Shown piece by piece: positions 56,533 through 64,000 of a stretch of DNA of 64,000 bases. Position 1 is the stretch's first letter. The number at the start of each line of letters is the position of its first letter. The DNA comes from Rodentibacter pneumotropicus DSM 21403 (GTDB lineage Bacteria; Pseudomonadota; Gammaproteobacteria; Enterobacterales; Pasteurellaceae): NCBI RefSeq assembly GCF_000379905.1, contig NZ_KB904055.1, positions 1-64,000 of the forward strand, read 5' to 3'. Both the position numbers and the translations under genes were made by a program. The notes under the pieces were generated by a model. It was not told where the DNA came from, did not search any database, and saw only the letters and a program-made list of their open reading frames with translations.

Positions 56533-56718
56533 TTTGACCCCAAGCATCATAACGCCCCCGCCAAATCAGTTTACCATCACTGTCCGTCTCTCTCGGTATG
56601 CCGATTTGGTCACAGTGGAAGTAGTTAATCTCGTGCTCAATCCGGTTTCCCTGTCCGTCCGTGCGGGCAATACATTGTGCCAACGGCTCGTAGCTATTTG
56701 AATCTCGGTAAAGAGAGA
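56533..56718 (-). pseudogene. Rhs core remnant (third copy, no tip)
   Basis: This 185-bp stretch closely matches 58033-58220 and 59303-59485, the HCDQIGIPREM...DGKLIWRGRYDAWG part of the Rhs core. It has a 3-bp deletion (CCGTCTCTC for CCGTCATCTCCC) and diverges at both ends. No tip sequence or open frame is attached. It lies between the ssb terminator and the orphan immunity gene, and is probably the oldest displaced rhs end. Confidence 0.85.
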
Positions 56719-56749: not shown

Positions 56750-57343
56750 CTATTTGTTTAGTTTTTGGAAAGTATATTTATCACAATAAATAGCAACAGC
56801 CTCCCAATTTGTCGTAACTTCCTCATTATTAACAATGATCCTAACCTCTTTTTTGTTTTTCTCTAGATACTTATCACGTAGAACTTCTGTAGGCAGTAAT
56901 CCAAATTGATTTAGATTATTTTGATTATGTATATATATTTCTTTATTGGGATCATCAATATCTAAAAATATCGGATAAATGCCCTCTATAATCGCACCAT
57001 CTTGATTGTTATAAATATCCCACCCTAAGAAATATAAATCATTTAAACTTAATCGTTTATCCCAATCATCTTTATAAAATAAGGAAACTCTTTCCCGATA
57101 CAAATTTGTTGTAGCGGTGAATATTAAATAACAATCATCCATTGACAACTTTTCTATTAGCCTCCTATCTTTTAAGATTAAATCATTTGTATAGTCAAGC
57201 TCTTGAAATTCCACATATGGTTTGATTTTTTCTATAAATTCATGACTATTCATATCCTCACATAAATATGAAGATATTATTTTTTGATTGCCTAATTTAT
57301 ATACTTCTTTATATATATCAAAATGATGTAAATATAGCTTCAT
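56750..57343 (-). CDS. Candidate immunity protein for the orphan Rhs tip
   Basis: This 197-residue soluble, acidic/aromatic, AT-rich protein has no signal peptide (MKLYLHHFDIYKEVYKLGNQ). It starts 19 bp after the orphan Rhs tip, with AAGGTGA as RBS. Position directly after a toxin tip is the standard place for an immunity gene. I do not recognise its family. WDIYNNQDGAIIEGIYPIF and EEVTTNWEAVAIYCDKYTF are its most distinctive parts. The immunity role is inferred from context only. Confidence 0.65.
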   Translation of the reverse strand: MKLYLHHFDIYKEVYKLGNQKIISSYLCEDMNSHEFIEKIKPYVEFQELDYTNDLILKDRRLIEKLSMDDCYLIFTATTNLYRERVSLFYKDDWDKRLSLNDLYFLGWDIYNNQDGAIIEGIYPIFLDIDDPNKEIYIHNQNNLNQFGLLPTEVLRDKYLEKNKKEVRIIVNNEEVTTNWEAVAIYCDKYTFQKLNK

Positions 57344-57362
57344 ATATTATTCACCTTATATA

Positions 57363-57851
57363 TTAAGGGTAAGAAGGAGGATCTACTTTACCATTCAAAT
57401 TAATTGCACCTGTTGGAATATAGTAAGTATGATGACCATACTCACGCATTACTTTTTTAGTGTGTTCCCAGCGACAAGAACAATCATTTGGGTTTTGGTT
57501 TATTGAAAATAATTTAAAATGAGGAATACCTTGCCCTCCATTATTTCGAGCTCCATCAACGCCTATTTGAACAGTTCTTGGACCAATATAACCTATAGTT
57601 CCTACTGGATAAGGTTTACAAGGCGGACACTTCTTCTTATCACATTTAGAGGTGTTTTCCGATTTAGCTTGTGTAGCAGACTGAGCCTTATCATGCTCTT
57701 CCTTCGCATCCATAATACCCGCTGCAATAAGAATGCCTGTTAAAGCTGTTCCTACATACGCCAATCCTTCCAAAATCCAAGGGACTGCCGGTGCAAGTGC
57801 CGGCGCAAATAATCCCAAGGGATCCGTTTGATTTCTGCACCGTTCCCTCAA
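57363..57851 (-). CDS. Orphan Rhs C-terminal toxin tip, out of frame with its core
   Basis: The frame encodes the Rhs junction DPLGL followed by FAPALAPAVPWILEGLAYVG (a hydrophobic segment). Then comes a cysteine cluster KCDKKKCPPCKPYPVGTIGY and a tip ending HFKLFSINQNPNDCSCRWEH and beyond. CPPC-PVGTI linkers leading into NQNP-N-C-C-W sequences are common in Rhs and other polymorphic toxins. The toxic activity is not identifiable. It has no proper start and is shifted from the core frame near 57820-57860, so it is probably silent unless recombined onto an intact core. Its immunity candidate follows. Confidence 0.7.
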   Translation of the reverse strand: MRERCRNQTDPLGLFAPALAPAVPWILEGLAYVGTALTGILIAAGIMDAKEEHDKAQSATQAKSENTSKCDKKKCPPCKPYPVGTIGYIGPRTVQIGVDGARNNGGQGIPHFKLFSINQNPNDCSCRWEHTKKVMREYGHHTYYIPTGAINLNGKVDPPSYP

Positions 57852-58366
57852 ACCGATACAAATTCATCCCACCTTTCAACCCTATCGGGTCCTGTGTCGT
57901 AAACCGCCCTGTTATCGGGTCATAGTAGCGCAGGAAGTTATAGTGCAACCCCGTTTCTTCATCATAGTATTGGTTTTGTAACCGAAACGGCTGGTGGGTG
58001 CCTGCCGTATTTTTCGGGTAGCGCTCTCGGATAAGAGCACCCCAAGCATCATAACGCCCCCGCCAAATCAGTTTACCATCACTGTCCGTCATCTCCCTCG
58101 GGATGCCGATTTGGTCACAGTGGAAGTAATTGACCTCGTGCTCAATCCGGTTGCCCTGTCCGTCCGTGCGGGCAAGACATTGCGCCAGTGGCTCATAGCT
58201 ATTTGGGTGGCGGTAAATATAGGTGAAAGTGCGGTCGGTTTCGGTGCCGTTTTTGTGGTCATGTCGGATTTCCTGCACCAAGTGCGAACCGTCCCAGATA
58301 AATTCGCTGTGTAACGCTTTTTCGCCCCCGTTGTTCAGTTTCCATTTGGCTAGCCGTCTGCATCTA
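57841..58366 (-). pseudogene. Displaced Rhs core fragment (second copy)
   Basis: This half-kilobase is nearly identical to the 3' core of the large VgrG-Rhs gene (59115-59626): LAKWKLN, GSHLVQEIRHD, HCDQIGIPREM, NQYYDEETGLHYNFLRYYDP and TQDPIGLKGGMNLY. It has no 5' part. It begins at 58359, directly abutting the 3' end of the membrane immunity gene. After NLYRF the frame shifts, so the adjoining tip (57363-57851) is in another frame. This is a typical orphan rhs module left after tip displacement. Confidence 0.88.
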
Positions 58367-58675
58367 ATATGCAATAAGATCATAGCTCAATAAAATAGAA
58401 GTTATAATAAAGAAAATAAAATAGGATAAAATCATCATAATTATCATATTTAACATCAAAACTAAATAACTGACATATGCTTTACCAGAAAACTTTATAT
58501 AAACTTGATAAATAAAAAAAATAATTGGTGTATATATAAATAAAATAGTATTTTTATCCATGTAAAGCCAAAACAAATACATAAACCTATCATTAACCAA
58601 AAGAGATAAAATACTCATTAAAGAAACATAAATAATAATATATACATTTTGAATCATTAACTCTAATTTTCCCAT
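58364..58675 (-). CDS. Small membrane protein, candidate immunity to the VgrG-Rhs toxin tip
   Basis: This 103-residue, very hydrophobic protein has three or four membrane segments (YIIIYVSLMSILSLLV, TILFIYTPIIFFIYQVYI and the long AYVSYLVLMLNMIIMMILSY region). Its ATG is 2 bp after the VgrG-Rhs stop, with AAGGTGA as RBS inside the toxin gene. Its 3' end runs into the displaced rhs core. Low GC and position mark it as the cognate immunity gene. A membrane location suggests the toxin acts at or across the inner membrane. No family is recognised. Confidence 0.7.
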   Translation of the reverse strand: MGKLELMIQNVYIIIYVSLMSILSLLVNDRFMYLFWLYMDKNTILFIYTPIIFFIYQVYIKFSGKAYVSYLVLMLNMIIMMILSYFIFFIITSILLSYDLIAY

Positions 58676-58677
58676 AT

Positions 58678-61600
58678 TTACTTCACCTTCTTAATTTTTA
58701 AGATGTCTTTTTCTACTTCTGTTGCAAAATCTTGACAATTATTCATTAATAAACTGTAATTATCATTACCAAAAACTGGATTATTTCTTATTACTATTTC
58801 CCCATTATCTGCTTTCTCTAAAGTTGGTTTCGTTCTATTTTTCACATTATTTACAGCTTGCCTCATAGTCTCATCATCATAATGAGTGCTAGAACATTTA
58901 TATCCTTGTATTGAAGTCTCAGAGAATAGTCCATCTCCACCATATCCTATATTAGTTCCATCATCATAAAAAATATGTTCATGAAAGAATCCTAAATCTA
59001 AACCACCTCTAAAATTAGGATCTATATCACTGCTTCCAGGAAGAGCTTTCAAGGCTCTAGTACAAAAGCGTGCTAATCCCAAAGGATCAACCCATGCCTG
59101 TACATTAGGTGCAAATTGATAAAGATTCATCCCACCTTTCAACCCTATCGGGTCCTGTGTCATAAACCGCCCTGTTATCGGGTCATAGTAACGCAGGAAG
59201 TTATAATGCAACCCCGTTTCTTCGTCATAGTATTGGTTTTGTAACCGAAACGGCTGGTGGATGCCTGCCGTATTTTTCGGGTAGCGCTCTCGGATAAAAC
59301 CGCCCCAAGCATCATAACGCCCCCGCCAAATCAGTTTACCATCACTGTCCGTCATCTCCCTCGGGATGCCGATTTGGTCACAGTGGAAATAGTTGACCTC
59401 GTGCTCAATCCGGTTTCCCTGTCCGTCCGTGCGGGCAAGACATTGCGCCAGCGGCTCATAGCTGTTCGGGTGGCAGTAAATATAGGTGAAAGTGCGGTCG
59501 GTTTCTGTGCCGTTTTTGTAGTCATGTCGGATTTCCTGCACCAAGTGCGAACCGTCCCAGATAAATTCGCTGTGTAACGCTTTTTCGCCCCCTTTGTTCA
59601 GTTTCCATTTGGCTAACCGTCTGCCCAACGGGTCATAATCATACCCCCAACTTTCCTGTTTGTAACGGGTGTAAATCTCCGCTTTTATCAGCCGATTTTT
59701 TAAATCATAGGTATAACGTTGGTAATCATCCTCTGCCCATTTGCGCTCAATCAGATTCCCCAAACTGTCATAGGTAAAACGAATACCTTGATAATTAACC
59801 ACCCGGTTGTCGTGAACCTTTTCCGTCGGGCTATTGACGAGGTTATGTGCCGGGTCAAAATAAAAACCTTGGACTTGAGGTTGAGAATGCCCTTGACTCT
59901 CCGCTTTGGCAATCCGCCCCAGATTGTCATACTGATATTGCGTCTGTTGCGGTGCCTCAAACGGTTTAGGCGGGAACGCCGTGCGCGTTTGGGTCAGATT
60001 ACCCAGACTGTCGTAGCCGTAAGTGCGGTCAATTTGTGCGCCGTTTTGGCTGTGGGCAAGCCCCGCCTGCTGTTGCACCAACCGTCCCATCTCGTCATAA
60101 CGGTAACGCTCAGTCAGCTGCCCCTGGCTTCGAACAATTTCACGATGAAGATTATCCCGCGCCATTTCACTGATGAGTTGATGATTGAGCTTGATACCCG
60201 ATAAATGTCCCGTACCATAGTAAAAATAACCTATACTATCCCCCGACGGCAGGCTGGTTTTTAAGCGGTTGCCATTCCCATCATAATCATAGGCAAGCCG
60301 CTTCCCTCCCTGACTTTCTTCCACTAAACGCCCTATCGCATCATAACGAAAATCAATCTGCTGCCCGCCACTTTCGACCGCACTCATCCGTCCGTTTAAA
60401 TCAAACCGGAATCGGGTTTGGTGGGTGCTCTCTCCCTGACGGATAACCTCTTCGGTCAGCTGTCCCAAGCTATCGTACCTAAATTCCGCTATCCGTATCG
60501 CCGCTTTATTCCTCTCTCCACGTTCCGTCACACCATAATCCATGCGACGCATCAGATTCCCCTGTCGGTCATATTCATACTGCGTGAGCTTATCATCAAA
60601 CCCCTTCGCCCAAATCACCCTGTCCAATTCGTCATACACAAAACGGTAGGTGGCGTGGTTTTCGTTAGTCAGCCCGACCAGTCTCCCTGCTACGTCATAA
60701 CCATAGTGAAAGTGATGACCTTGTACATTGGTTTTTATACTGAGTAAGCCGTCAGCCCGGTATTGATAGCGGGTTCGGTTGCCCTGTGGGTCAATCACCT
60801 CTGTCATACGCCCCGCCTTGTCGTAGCGGTAAGCGGTGCGCTCTTGATTCGGTAACACCATGGCTATCAGCTGTTGTCGTTCGTTGTAGTCATAGCGGGT
60901 GGTGTGACCCTGCGCATCCGTTTGTGCGGTAAGTTGCCCCCATTCGTTATAACAAAAACGGCTTTGATTGCCCGAACAGTCCGTCACTTGGCTCAGTTGA
61001 TAGTTGTCATCATACGCAAACAAGGTATCATTACCCAACGGGTCGGTACTGGAAGTCAGAAGTCCTTTGTCATTATAGACATACTGCGTTTTTTGATTTA
61101 ACGCATCAAGGCGTTCAATCACGTTGCCCCTGTCGTCATAATGATAACGGGTCAGGTTGCCAAGCGCATCCGTTTGTCCCGTTAAACGACCCTCATTGTC
61201 ATACATAAAATACAACATCGCATTATCCGGGCGGGTCAGTTTCGTCATCTGTCCCTGTGGGTTGTATTCAAAATAACGATGTTGCCCGGAGGCGTCGGTC
61301 TGCCGTAACACCCGACCCAGCTTATCCCGCTCAAACAACACAGCCTGACCATCCTTTGACACCTGCTTGACCAGTTCATTGTGCTCATCAAAGTGATATT
61401 CTTCACGTCTGCCCAGCACATCGCTCACCACCGTGTGGCCCGGAAAATAAGCAAATTCCCAACGTTCACCCAGACTGGTCGTATTGCGAATCACTTTGCC
61501 CCTTGGCGTATATTCGTCATACTCATAAGCAGACACTAAACCTGCCGCATCTTCATGAGAAATCATCAGGTGATGCCGATAGCCGAATTGACGGACAATA

Positions 61601-64000
61601 TTGCCTAAGCCGTCTTTCACCCAAATTAAATCCCCTTCGCTATTGTAGCCATAAGAGACTAATTGACGGGCAGATAAAGGGGCGGCAAGGAGCGTCTCGA
61701 CACCGTCGGAAAGTGCGGTCGGATTTTTCGCTGTTTTTTGTAGCCCTTCCTGTAATTGACTCAGGTCTATATCGGAAAAGGATTGTGTCAGTAAATACAC
61801 AGCGGTCAGTCGCCATTGTGGTGAGACATCGTCGTGTTCAGACCCATCTATCTGTGGTGTGGTAGCGTGTGGGGTGATGTGTAGTATCCTATTTGTTGTT
61901 TCAGCATTGTCGGTCAGATTGGTAAACTGCAACCCAAACACCCGCCCATTGCCGTCCACAACCGCATAAGGTAGGTTATCCTGCCCGTATAAGAACTGTT
62001 GGCGATTACCATGATTATCCCCAATCTGCGTGAGCACAAAATTCCTGTTTCCACCCTGACGGGTAAAGGTAAAATGCACCATTTTATCCGACGAGGAAAG
62101 ACGAACCGTCTCGGCAGATAAACGCTGCACCCAAATCTGCTCCGCCTGAATATACACCGGTATCCCGTCATTCATCATTGACGGCAACCTAATCTCCCGT
62201 CCCTGCTCGTCAAGATAAACCAACTGCTCAATGTGCACGACGGATTGACTCGTCCTCTCAATGTTCGCCTCCCCCTCTGCCGCCATATCGCCCATCAGCG
62301 TTTCCGCCGATATTGCCGTTAAACGGGATTCGATACGTTGACTGCCGTTCACCAACCAGCCCTGACCCAGCCAACCAATATGGGATACATCGGAATAATA
62401 ACTTCGCCGCCAACTCAGCGGCATTAAACCCGGAAGCGCAAAATCCACTTCATGGCTTAACAACTTAATCCCCAAAATCGGATTCACCGGACGTCCCACC
62501 GCCGCAGCCTGTTTACACGCAACACATTCGCCTTCCACCGAACGTCCGCCCGCCACGGCGTTGTCTTTCACCGTCAACGGCCCTTCAATCGTCACTACGC
62601 CTTTTAACGTAATCCCTTTTTCATTCAGGTGAATCTCGCCGCCTCGGCTTTCCAGTCGGATTTCATCTTTGCCGGTCACGTGCATATTTTGACTGATAAG
62701 CGTCAAGCGTTCTGCGGTACTCAAATGCGTATTGTGGCTGACGTCAATCTTATAATCCTTGCCCACCGTTAAACCATAATCCTGTCCCACTATTTCATGT
62801 TGGTCTAGCAAGACGTTTAGGCTGCGCATCATGCCCACATTGTGCAACTCATTCATCACAATGTTGGTCATCCGGTTAAAGCCCACCGTGAGCAACTCAT
62901 TTTGTTTTATCGTCTGCGAACGGTTTTTCCCCACCGTAATTTTTTCATTACGTCCGACCTTCTCCGTCCGATTGCGTCCCACTTTCGTGGTCTCATCATG
63001 ATTCACGACGTTATTTTGGTCTCTTTGCGCATGAAGAAAGACTTCTTCTTTATCTTTTTCATCCTCAAAACGCAATTCGTTAAAGCCGTTACCCTTATGC
63101 GTCTTCGACTTTATCGTCATCCGCGTTTTATGCTCCGGCAAAGGATACGGCGGCTCCGTCGTACTGTGATAAGTCCGTCCTGTGATTATCGGTTGGTCCG
63201 GGTCGCCTTCTAAAAAGCTGACAATCACCTCGTGACCGATTCGCGGTATCATCATCGCACCAAACTGCGCACCCGCCCAGCCCTGACTCACCCGTACCCA
63301 GCAGGAACTGTGTTCGTTGTTGTTACCCAATCTGTCCCACGGGAACTGTATCTTGACCCGACCCCAGCGGTCACAATATATCTCTTCTCCCGCCGGTCCC
63401 ACCACATGGGCCACCTGCTGACCGTCCACCTTGGGCTTCTGCTGTGGTGTCGGACGCCACGCCTTACCGCGCGGTATCAGTTTGATGGTGTTTTCATAAC
63501 GGTTGCCCGCCTCCCCCGCTTCTTCCTCCAATACGCCGCTTTGCCAACCTCGGTGTACCACCCCCACCACTAACCAATCCTGATTAAATCGTGCCCGTCT
63601 ATGCCCGGTTAAACTAAAGCAATACCCCGGCATCACGCGCAGGTCATCACTTTTTGCCTGCGCCACTTCCGCTTCCCGTTGTTCGTATTCCAATCGGTAG
63701 CGGCTAAACGGTTCACCTTGTTCATCCCGTTTATAACGTCCCGGATAATCATAACGCTCATATTGCCCGACCCGATGCTCGCCCAACACATTCGCGATAT
63801 TATGAACCGCTTGATGCTCCTGATTGTAACGTGGATTCGTAAACGTATAATCACGCAGGGTTTGCCGGGTTGAACCCAGTGTTTCCTCATAATCCCAATG
63901 CCAAACCGCCGCCTGCGGACGCTCGCCTGACGGCATCCCATTGTACAATAACTCTCCCTTGGTCTCCGCGAGCGCCGCACTGTTACAAAAGTGTAAAATA
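58678..64000 (-). CDS. VgrG-Rhs fusion, type VI secretion spike with Rhs cage and toxin tip (5' end outside window)
   Basis: The frame is open from the window edge, with no stop up to 64000, and encodes more than 1,770 residues. Counting from the TTG at 63948, residues 1-170 are gp27-like VgrG sequence (MPSGERPQAAVWHWDYEETL). Residues 175-290 form the gp5 OB domain (DRWGRVKIQFPWDRLG, GHEVIVSFLEGDPDQPIITG). Residues 300-460 form the repetitive spike (VGRNRTEKVGRNEKITVGKN). From about 475 the Rhs entry domain (NPILGIKLLSHEVDFALPG) leads into many YD repeats and the core end TQDPIGLKGGMNLY. DPLGL precedes a 131-residue tip with FFHEHIFYDDG and NNCQDFATEV. No PAAR domain is seen. Immunity and displaced rhs modules follow. 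Confidence 0.93.
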   Translation of the reverse strand, partial: ILHFCNSAALAETKGELLYNGMPSGERPQAAVWHWDYEETLGSTRQTLRDYTFTNPRYNQEHQAVHNIANVLGEHRVGQYERYDYPGRYKRDEQGEPFSRYRLEYEQREAEVAQAKSDDLRVMPGYCFSLTGHRRARFNQDWLVVGVVHRGWQSGVLEEEAGEAGNRYENTIKLIPRGKAWRPTPQQKPKVDGQQVAHVVGPAGEEIYCDRWGRVKIQFPWDRLGNNNEHSSCWVRVSQGWAGAQFGAMMIPRIGHEVIVSFLEGDPDQPIITGRTYHSTTEPPYPLPEHKTRMTIKSKTHKGNGFNELRFEDEKDKEEVFLHAQRDQNNVVNHDETTKVGRNRTEKVGRNEKITVGKNRSQTIKQNELLTVGFNRMTNIVMNELHNVGMMRSLNVLLDQHEIVGQDYGLTVGKDYKIDVSHNTHLSTAERLTLISQNMHVTGKDEIRLESRGGEIHLNEKGITLKGVVTIEGPLTVKDNAVAGGRSVEGECVACKQAAAVGRPVNPILGIKLLSHEVDFALPGLMPLSWRRSYYSDVSHIGWLGQGWLVNGSQRIESRLTAISAETLMGDMAAEGEANIERTSQSVVHIEQLVYLDEQGREIRLPSMMNDGIPVYIQAEQIWVQRLSAETVRLSSSDKMVHFTFTRQGGNRNFVLTQIGDNHGNRQQFLYGQDNLPYAVVDGNGRVFGLQFTNLTDNAETTNRILHITPHATTPQIDGSEHDDVSPQWRLTAVYLLTQSFSDIDLSQLQEGLQKTAKNPTALSDGVETLLAAPLSARQLVSYGYNSEGDLIWVKDGLGNIVRQFGYRHHLMISHEDAAGLVSAYEYDEYTPRGKVIRNTTSLGERWEFAYFPGHTVVSDVLGRREEYHFDEHNELVKQVSKDGQAVLFERDKLGRVLRQTDASGQHRYFEYNPQGQMTKLTRPDNAMLYFMYDNEGRLTGQTDALGNLTRYHYDDRGNVIERLDALNQKTQYVYNDKGLLTSSTDPLGNDTLFAYDDNYQLSQVTDCSGNQSRFCYNEWGQLTAQTDAQGHTTRYDYNERQQLIAMVLPNQERTAYRYDKAGRMTEVIDPQGNRTRYQYRADGLLSIKTNVQGHHFHYGYDVAGRLVGLTNENHATYRFVYDELDRVIWAKGFDDKLTQYEYDRQGNLMRRMDYGVTERGERNKAAIRIAEFRYDSLGQLTEEVIRQGESTHQTRFRFDLNGRMSAVESGGQQIDFRYDAIGRLVEESQGGKRLAYDYDGNGNRLKTSLPSGDSIGYFYYGTGHLSGIKLNHQLISEMARDNLHREIVRSQGQLTERYRYDEMGRLVQQQAGLAHSQNGAQIDRTYGYDSLGNLTQTRTAFPPKPFEAPQQTQYQYDNLGRIAKAESQGHSQPQVQGFYFDPAHNLVNSPTEKVHDNRVVNYQGIRFTYDSLGNLIERKWAEDDYQRYTYDLKNRLIKAEIYTRYKQESWGYDYDPLGRRLAKWKLNKGGEKALHSEFIWDGSHLVQEIRHDYKNGTETDRTFTYIYCHPNSYEPLAQCLARTDGQGNRIEHEVNYFHCDQIGIPREMTDSDGKLIWRGRYDAWGGFIRERYPKNTAGIHQPFRLQNQYYDEETGLHYNFLRYYDPITGRFMTQDPIGLKGGMNLYQFAPNVQAWVDPLGLARFCTRALKALPGSSDIDPNFRGGLDLGFFHEHIFYDDGTNIGYGGDGLFSETSIQGYKCSSTHYDDETMRQAVNNVKNRTKPTLEKADNGEIVIRNNPVFGNDNYSLLMNNCQDFATEVEKDILKIKKVK

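Follow-up and report, generated by a model that had tools for sequence, protein, structure and literature searches.

We analysed the first 64,000 bases (hereafter the window) of the 183,199-base contig NZ_KB904055.1 from Rodentibacter pneumotropicus DSM 21403, whose draft genome totals 2.26 Mb. At the far end of the window, on the minus strand, lies a gene that encodes a VgrG, the spike protein of type VI secretion, and a complete Rhs toxin module as one chain (the vgrG-rhs fusion). Its frame is open from 58678 through the end of the window and begins at an ATG at contig position 64527, 527 bases farther on, giving a product of 1,949 amino acids (aa; ~214 kDa) whose first residues are also the first residues of a plain VgrG from the same genome. 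The original prediction, made from the bases alone, had described a single uninterrupted frame running from VgrG through an Rhs entry domain and YD repeats to a toxin tip; the complete open reading frame (ORF) and its Pfam and NCBIfam domains confirm this, coordinates included, and the VgrG N-terminus expected beyond position 64000 is present there.

The domain matches account for both parts of the chain. The head matches the NCBIfam models TIGR03361 (residues 16–521, 599.5 bits against a cut-off of 186.35) and TIGR01646 (436.5 bits, above cut-off), with a full-length match to the VgrG (TssI) family, and within it Pfam finds Phage_GPD (PF05954, 27–330), OB (PF04717, 386–453) and Gp5_trimer_C (470–572). 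The elements of an Rhs polymorphic toxin, namely entry domain, YD repeats and Rhs-associated core, are all present behind it: DUF6531 (PF20148) at 678–735 (E 1.2e-16), ten RHS_repeat (PF05593) stretches, RHS at 1713–1747, and Rhs_assc_core (TIGR03696) at 1738–1818, followed by a Pfam LRAT match at 1890–1939. The core holds an aspartate pair for C-terminal self-cleavage, D1792 and D1814, 22 residues apart, a spacing found in five of five complete fusions, one of which has DLLGL in place of DPLGL. That variant belongs to a Rodentibacter caecimuris gene (L058, 3935–9814) that is otherwise open.

No stop codon interrupts the fusion frame at 62400–62600, where a stop or an assembly error had been named as what might separate vgrG from rhs, and the junction recurs in other assemblies. 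The protein also has no Pfam PAAR match at E up to 0.05, the junction included, as had been predicted for the stretch between spike and cage, and no transmembrane window along its chain. A predicted model of the cage (mean predicted local distance difference test score, pLDDT, 56.6) was too weak to place the linker.

Features of the vgrG-rhs locus (window positions; residue numbers refer to the fusion protein)
Feature	Position	Strand	Basis or remark
vgrG-rhs fusion gene	58678..64000 (to 64527 on contig)	-	complete ORF, 1,949 aa
VgrG head: gp27-like hub, OB fold, spike start	62965..64000	-	TIGR03361, TIGR01646, PF05954, PF04717; N-terminal part beyond window
Distal beta-helix of spike, ~residues 550-652	62572..62880	-	alignment identity; apparently cargo-specific
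Junction CxxC-K-x-A-A-A-x-G-R-P-V-N-P-x-L-G and DUF6531, ~665-735	62323..62535	-	PF20148
YD-repeat cage, ~residues 953-1640	59608..61671	-	ten PF05593; homologous to Rhs shells 8qja, 7q97, 8cp6
Rhs-associated core 1738-1818, aspartyl self-cleavage pair	59074..59316	-	TIGR03696; motif; spacing as RhsA D1324/D1346
Toxin tip 1819-1949, permuted papain-like, LRAT/PPPDE-like	58681..59073	-	candidate catalytic H1849, C1931
Immunity candidate, 103-aa membrane protein	58364..58675	-	2 bases after tip; 3-4 hydrophobic segments
Displaced (orphan) rhs 3' end	57363..58383	-	core copy 57691-58383, tip 57363-57851, different frames
197-aa ORF behind orphan tip, possible immunity gene	56750..57343	-	position; only weak family match, E 0.05
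Second rhs relic	56538..56695	-	161-column match to main gene, 93.2%

The fusion recurs in Pasteurellaceae and beyond

We surveyed 140 Pasteurellaceae genomes with a query of 576 aa around the junction, which matched in 28 of them. One unbroken match crossed the junction in six genes from five genomes (G000, which is the genome of the window, G017, G118 twice, G121 and G126) at 72–100% identity, and a diverged single-frame form was found in three more (G043; G099, cut by a contig end; and G015, broken off at 948 aa). The same fusion, for which a survey of the family had been suggested, is thus present in at least eight of the 140 genomes, one copy being broken and three (G121, G126 and G099) truncated by contig ends. 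The complete proteins are 1,949 aa (G000), 1,916 aa (G017), 2,017 and 1,959 aa (G118) and 1,887 aa (G043) long.

This recurrence bears on whether an annotation or assembly artefact has joined two genes. Several vgrG copies do stop at contig ends in the draft genome; however, the same junction appears in other assemblies, that of G017 being a single contig, with 72–78% identity across it. Because the junction is conserved, we regard the artefact as refuted, its remaining probability being negligible.

A junction-alignment scan of a named collection (84,980 genomes by its own description) returned 42 loci, six with a VgrG head in the same ORF: Rodentibacter mrazii, R. caecimuris (two), Rodentibacter sp. 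Ppn85, Muribacter muris and Aggregatibacter (A.) actinomycetemcomitans. In A. actinomycetemcomitans HK_961 (L061/L104, L073), the front and back pieces of a fusion are separated by ~8 kb of DNA that holds phage-tail-like genes; we treated these three loci as pieces and left them out of the count of intact genes. Across 398 Pseudomonadota genomes, DUF6531 matched in 55, and at least two further fusions were found (G788, 2,023 aa; G545, 1,929 aa), both with a VgrG head. This figure is a lower bound, seven of the nine other DUF6531 matches in frames of more than 1,700 aa having been inspected. An order-wide whole-protein survey (394 genomes) scored the two best candidates per genome and gives no count of fusions; its most promising candidate, in G412 (frame of 2097 aa), turned out to consist of two genes, a vgrG and an rhs whose start looks PAAR-like by eye.

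The distal spike follows the cargo, and cage ends and tips are exchanged

The segment CxxC-K-...-G-x-P-V-N-x-x-L-G that opens the junction also heads Rhs proteins of Neisseria and others that have no VgrG in their ORF. It therefore marks where the Rhs module begins, which makes the fusion a clean one. To its N-terminal side, the protein resembles the plain VgrG of its own genome at 70–90% identity per 50-column window over columns 50–499 (84–90% at columns 400–499), falling to 26–28% at columns 550–649, where identity to the fusion of another genus (G017) stays at 76–80%. Over columns 550–699 the distal spike is 76–88% identical to that of the G017 fusion versus 14–28% to the same-genome plain VgrG, and the distal spikes of fusion and plain VgrG also differ in length by small insertions and deletions. 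G043 (L060) presents a similar picture within one genome: three vgrG genes are nearly identical to about residue 584–593 and then split inside the spike, each leading to a different cargo, which is none (plain VgrG, 679 aa), a lipase_3 domain (974 aa) or an Rhs cage with a PLA2-like tip. From these alignments, the distal spike appears to follow the cargo and not the head.

Trees were built for heads and Rhs cores. Among 59 VgrG heads, eight of them fused, the 'fused' label changes four times, also when only branches with good support are counted; the Muribacter row, a long branch, is of unsure placement. For the Rhs part, label changes were taken from a tree of cores and not from one of entry domains, where our gene is marked unfused, its locus (L019) ending short of the head. 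In the tree of 34 Rhs cores, which omits 17 rows of insufficient cover or length (one being the Muribacter fusion), the eight Pasteurellaceae rows form one clade (100/100) and the label changes twice. Five members of this clade are fused, one is the separated back piece from A. actinomycetemcomitans, and two are G009 paralogues (one cut by a contig end), the longer of which (L063) has a different N-terminus that it shares with two neighbouring ORFs, one pesticin-like. The trees thus place one Pasteurellaceae Rhs lineage on at least two VgrG heads and on one other head. Heads may have changed through several fusions or through head exchange; either history can be mimicked by gene conversion between heads.

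The 3' end of the gene has its own history. Two R. caecimuris genes are identical over their first ~1,080 aa; beyond that, one is 91–95% identical per window of the alignment to the gene described here (to about residue 1822), the other 43–82%. A block of 2,518 columns (window positions 57663–60180) recurs at 98.3% identity in R. caecimuris (L058), where it lies behind the active gene as a displaced unit that comprises the cage end of our gene, its tip (128 of 128 residues) and its immunity ORF (103 of 103). Within the window, the orphan 3' end shares 513 nt with the main gene at 95.5%, and there is a 300-nt direct repeat. At G+C fractions of 0.315 (tip) and 0.196 (immunity ORF), these two are rich in AT; the cage stands at 0.496 and the within-window portion of the head at 0.516. 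The 197-aa ORF behind the orphan tip has no Pfam, NCBIfam or PADLOC family match apart from one weak match at E 0.05. These alignments indicate that strains differ by exchange and displacement of cage ends and tips. What the window shows is the displacement common among Rhs 3' ends, in this case on a gene fused to VgrG.

The genome encodes a type VI apparatus and a separate PAAR protein

The tss genes, which the original prediction had suggested looking for elsewhere in the genome, exist: a type VI secretion system (T6SS) cluster lies on contig C3, with TssB, C, E, F, G, J and K and TssD, H, L and M scoring above their cut-offs and TssA (224.6 bits) just under its own (230.1). PAAR is found by Pfam, the NCBIfam match being under cut-off, and the only Pfam PAAR match in the genome is a separate 89-aa protein on C3 that adjoins a plain vgrG. 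No EagR/DcrB family match was found in the genome, and its six DUF4123 adaptor-domain matches all lie on contigs other than that of the fusion.

The original prediction held that the fusion needs neither adaptor nor PAAR docking. The lack of an EagR match and of transmembrane windows, together with the location of the DUF4123 proteins, speaks for this view, which we consider plausible, but the stand-alone PAAR protein could still cap the spike.

Behind the plain vgrG on C3 (L010, 11278–15682) are a Tla1-like protein (Tle1 chaperone; weak, with a DUF4123 match) and a protein resembling the T6SS effector family BTH_I2691, both under NCBIfam cut-offs. Contigs C1, C4, C9, C13, C20 and C22 of this assembly break off within copies of vgrG, and runs of N occur at some of these ends; they represent further vgrG loci, incomplete in the draft.

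The tip resembles a papain-type cysteine enzyme and is paired with a membrane protein

The Pfam LRAT model scores 24.7 bits on the whole chain and 30.1 bits on the tip (gathering cut-off 24.3), covering only model positions 65–115 of 120. H1849 and C1931, with His before Cys, are invariant in eight of eight sequences compared. A structure comparison of the tip (VIA-align) had PPPDE structures and no LRAT structure among the matches listed, which excludes nothing. The tip looks like a permuted papain-type cysteine enzyme (LRAT/PPPDE-like). Given the small membrane protein encoded next to it, its probable site of action is the membrane, reached from the periplasm. A PADLOC search of the tip, immunity and orphan proteins gave no match at E up to 0.01.

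Tips vary between homologues of the fusion, and we compared 17 distinct ones: nine LRAT-like (eight with NNCQ[DH]F and one shortened homologue), five with a hydrophobic start (over 1.6), one PLA2-like and two others (L063 and L147). None of the nine LRAT-like tips has a hydrophobic start, and behind every one lies an ORF with 2–4 hydrophobic segments; the 103-aa immunity candidate itself has an identical copy behind the identical tip in R. caecimuris. The PLA2-like tip also has no hydrophobic start, and the ORFs behind it and the LRAT-like tips have transmembrane windows. L063 has neither a hydrophobic start nor a neighbour with transmembrane windows, and L147 has no hydrophobic start and such a neighbour. 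In the five tips with a hydrophobic start, a strongly hydrophobic segment lies directly behind the self-cleavage motif (L055 3967–4371; L058 701–1741; L073; L146 149–1108; L150 30–770), which gives the impression that a helix for crossing the membrane belongs to the tip. One tip with a hydrophobic start sits on an intact fusion (G017), where the neighbouring protein (94 aa) lacks transmembrane windows; for three of the five, the rule used found no neighbouring ORF.

A proposed mechanism for a spike that carries its own toxin cage

We propose that the fusion acts against other bacteria as a type VI effector, with VgrG itself carrying the Rhs toxin cage, and we hold this to be probable. The heads would trimerise as the spike on the Hcp tube, and the cage, folded behind the spike on a short linker, would keep the tip harmless while the aspartyl motif frees it inside. 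Firing would deliver spike and cage to the periplasm of a neighbour, where the released tip, acting as a permuted papain-type cysteine enzyme, would attack lipids of the membrane or proteins bound to it; kin would be protected by the 103-aa membrane protein. In favour of the effector reading we counted the complete ORF and its domain order, the recurrence of the fusion in the family, the T6SS genes, the lack of EagR matches and transmembrane windows, the spacing of the aspartate pair, the membrane-type ORFs behind the LRAT-like tips, the recurrence of the tip and the 103-aa ORF as a displaced unit in R. caecimuris, and the precedent of Tox-Act1, a phospholipase with a membrane-associated immunity protein. 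An N-terminal PAAR, transmembrane helices and EagR may be absent because the spike replaces PAAR and a periplasmic target makes the others unnecessary.

The covalent linkage of spike and cage had also been predicted. That the two are made as one chain is borne out; whether they stay linked is less clear. Cleavage could occur behind the spike, where other Rhs proteins have their N-terminal site; the link would then serve folding and loading only, and the cage would be held or shed later. RhsA is cut between H304 and P305 (PMC8765631), Rhs effectors of Aeromonas dhakensis and V. parahaemolyticus are cut at x/PVxxxxGE, and Tse15, whose cage is rarely secreted, is cut at another Glu-containing motif (PMC11461821). 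A comparable sequence, G-R/H-P-V-N-P, occurs in nine of nine fusion sequences, with a potentially scissile G-R/P-V at 678–681 in the protein of the window. Against such a cut, alignments judged by eye show I687 and K688 at +7/+8 of the proline, positions at which TseI carries Glu, and place S999 and N1015 at the positions of RhsA Cys538 and His555, only H991 being kept. The known catalysts of N-terminal cleavage are therefore absent, and we consider the cut possible rather than probable.

Whether one or three cages sit on a VgrG trimer, a question raised with the original prediction, is a real one. Three fusion chains could form a homotrimer with three cages per spike, the distal spike in each cargo module sorting like with like. 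The high identity of the distal spike between the fusions of two genera, its low identity and small indels relative to the same-genome plain VgrG, and the three G043 VgrGs that split inside the spike point this way: since the distal spike is tied to the cargo, homotrimers would be favoured. Three cages of RhsA size (~86 x 65 A; PMC8765631) at one tip may not fit the apparatus, however, and we give this arrangement about an even chance. One fusion chain could instead join two plain VgrG chains, which would yield one cage per spike and leave room for PAAR. The similarity of fusion and plain heads over columns 50–499, the near identity of the G043 heads and the further vgrG pieces in the genome fit such a heterotrimer, but its distal spikes would be unlike in sequence and length, and we judge it rather unlikely. 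Covalent examples of this kind make the number of cages per VgrG trimer directly measurable by mass or cryo-electron microscopy. More generally, our comparisons suggest that the cargo-linked unit includes the outer VgrG spike, a point relevant to cargo sorting by spikes.

A broader and more doubtful reading is a three-part exchange system. A general VgrG head would be combined with a cargo-specific distal spike and cage front that enforce homotrimers, so that each shot would deliver three cages with three toxins, and with an exchangeable cage end and tip. Because the spike occupies the N-terminus, where PAAR-Rhs proteins carry it, the helix for crossing the inner membrane would have moved into cytoplasm-targeting tips behind the self-cleavage site, and periplasm-acting tips would do without it and be paired with membrane immunity proteins.

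Comparison with known systems

The VgrG-Rhs architecture is already on record, as a rare and recurrent one. The PDB structure 8qja_A ('Putative type VI secretion system YD repeat-containing Rhs element Vgr protein', 1,879 residues), possibly from Advenella, likewise fuses a VgrG head to an Rhs cage: residues 26–542 of our fusion align with its residues 26–546, and both have a CxxC before the entry domain. It differs in a longer stretch between head and cage, in its distant sequence and in ending where the tip of our protein begins. It is presumably described by Kielkopf et al., Structure 2024. That work is cited for the statement that Rhs is 'less commonly' fused with VgrG (PMC13324451, 2026), and Zhang et al. 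2012 place VgrG at the toxin N-terminus in certain cases (PMC3482391). PMC8636562, PMC13285283 and PMC8125069 treat VgrG-Rhs complexes, or PAAR and other heads. A literature search, mostly without reach into subscription papers, found no description of the Pasteurellaceae fusion among the titles and abstracts listed. The novelty added here is modest: an Rhs module of Pasteurellaceae that forms one clade on at least two kinds of head, an apparently cargo-specific distal spike, and a test case for cage number.

For the tip, the PPPDE1/DeSI peptidases, represented by a human enzyme, are 16% identical. Tox-Act1 of the Salmonella T6SS is described in PMC12994826 as a permuted NlpC/P60 phospholipase with a membrane-associated immunity protein. 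By description, the fusion tip is like it in combining a permuted His...Cys papain-type core with membrane-associated immunity, and unlike it in sitting in an Rhs cage on VgrG.

PAAR-Rhs effectors such as Pseudomonas protegens RhsA and Photorhabdus Rhs1/Tre23 have a cage, aspartyl self-cleavage, a variable tip and an immunity gene, as does the fusion, but they carry an N-terminal PAAR, transmembrane helices and an EagR chaperone where the fusion has VgrG (PMC8636562, PMC8765631). The evolved VgrGs, including VgrG2b with its metalloprotease domain and the lipase_3 VgrG of G043, also hold their cargo behind the spike; the fusion differs in that it carries an entire Rhs cage, complete with an exchangeable tip.
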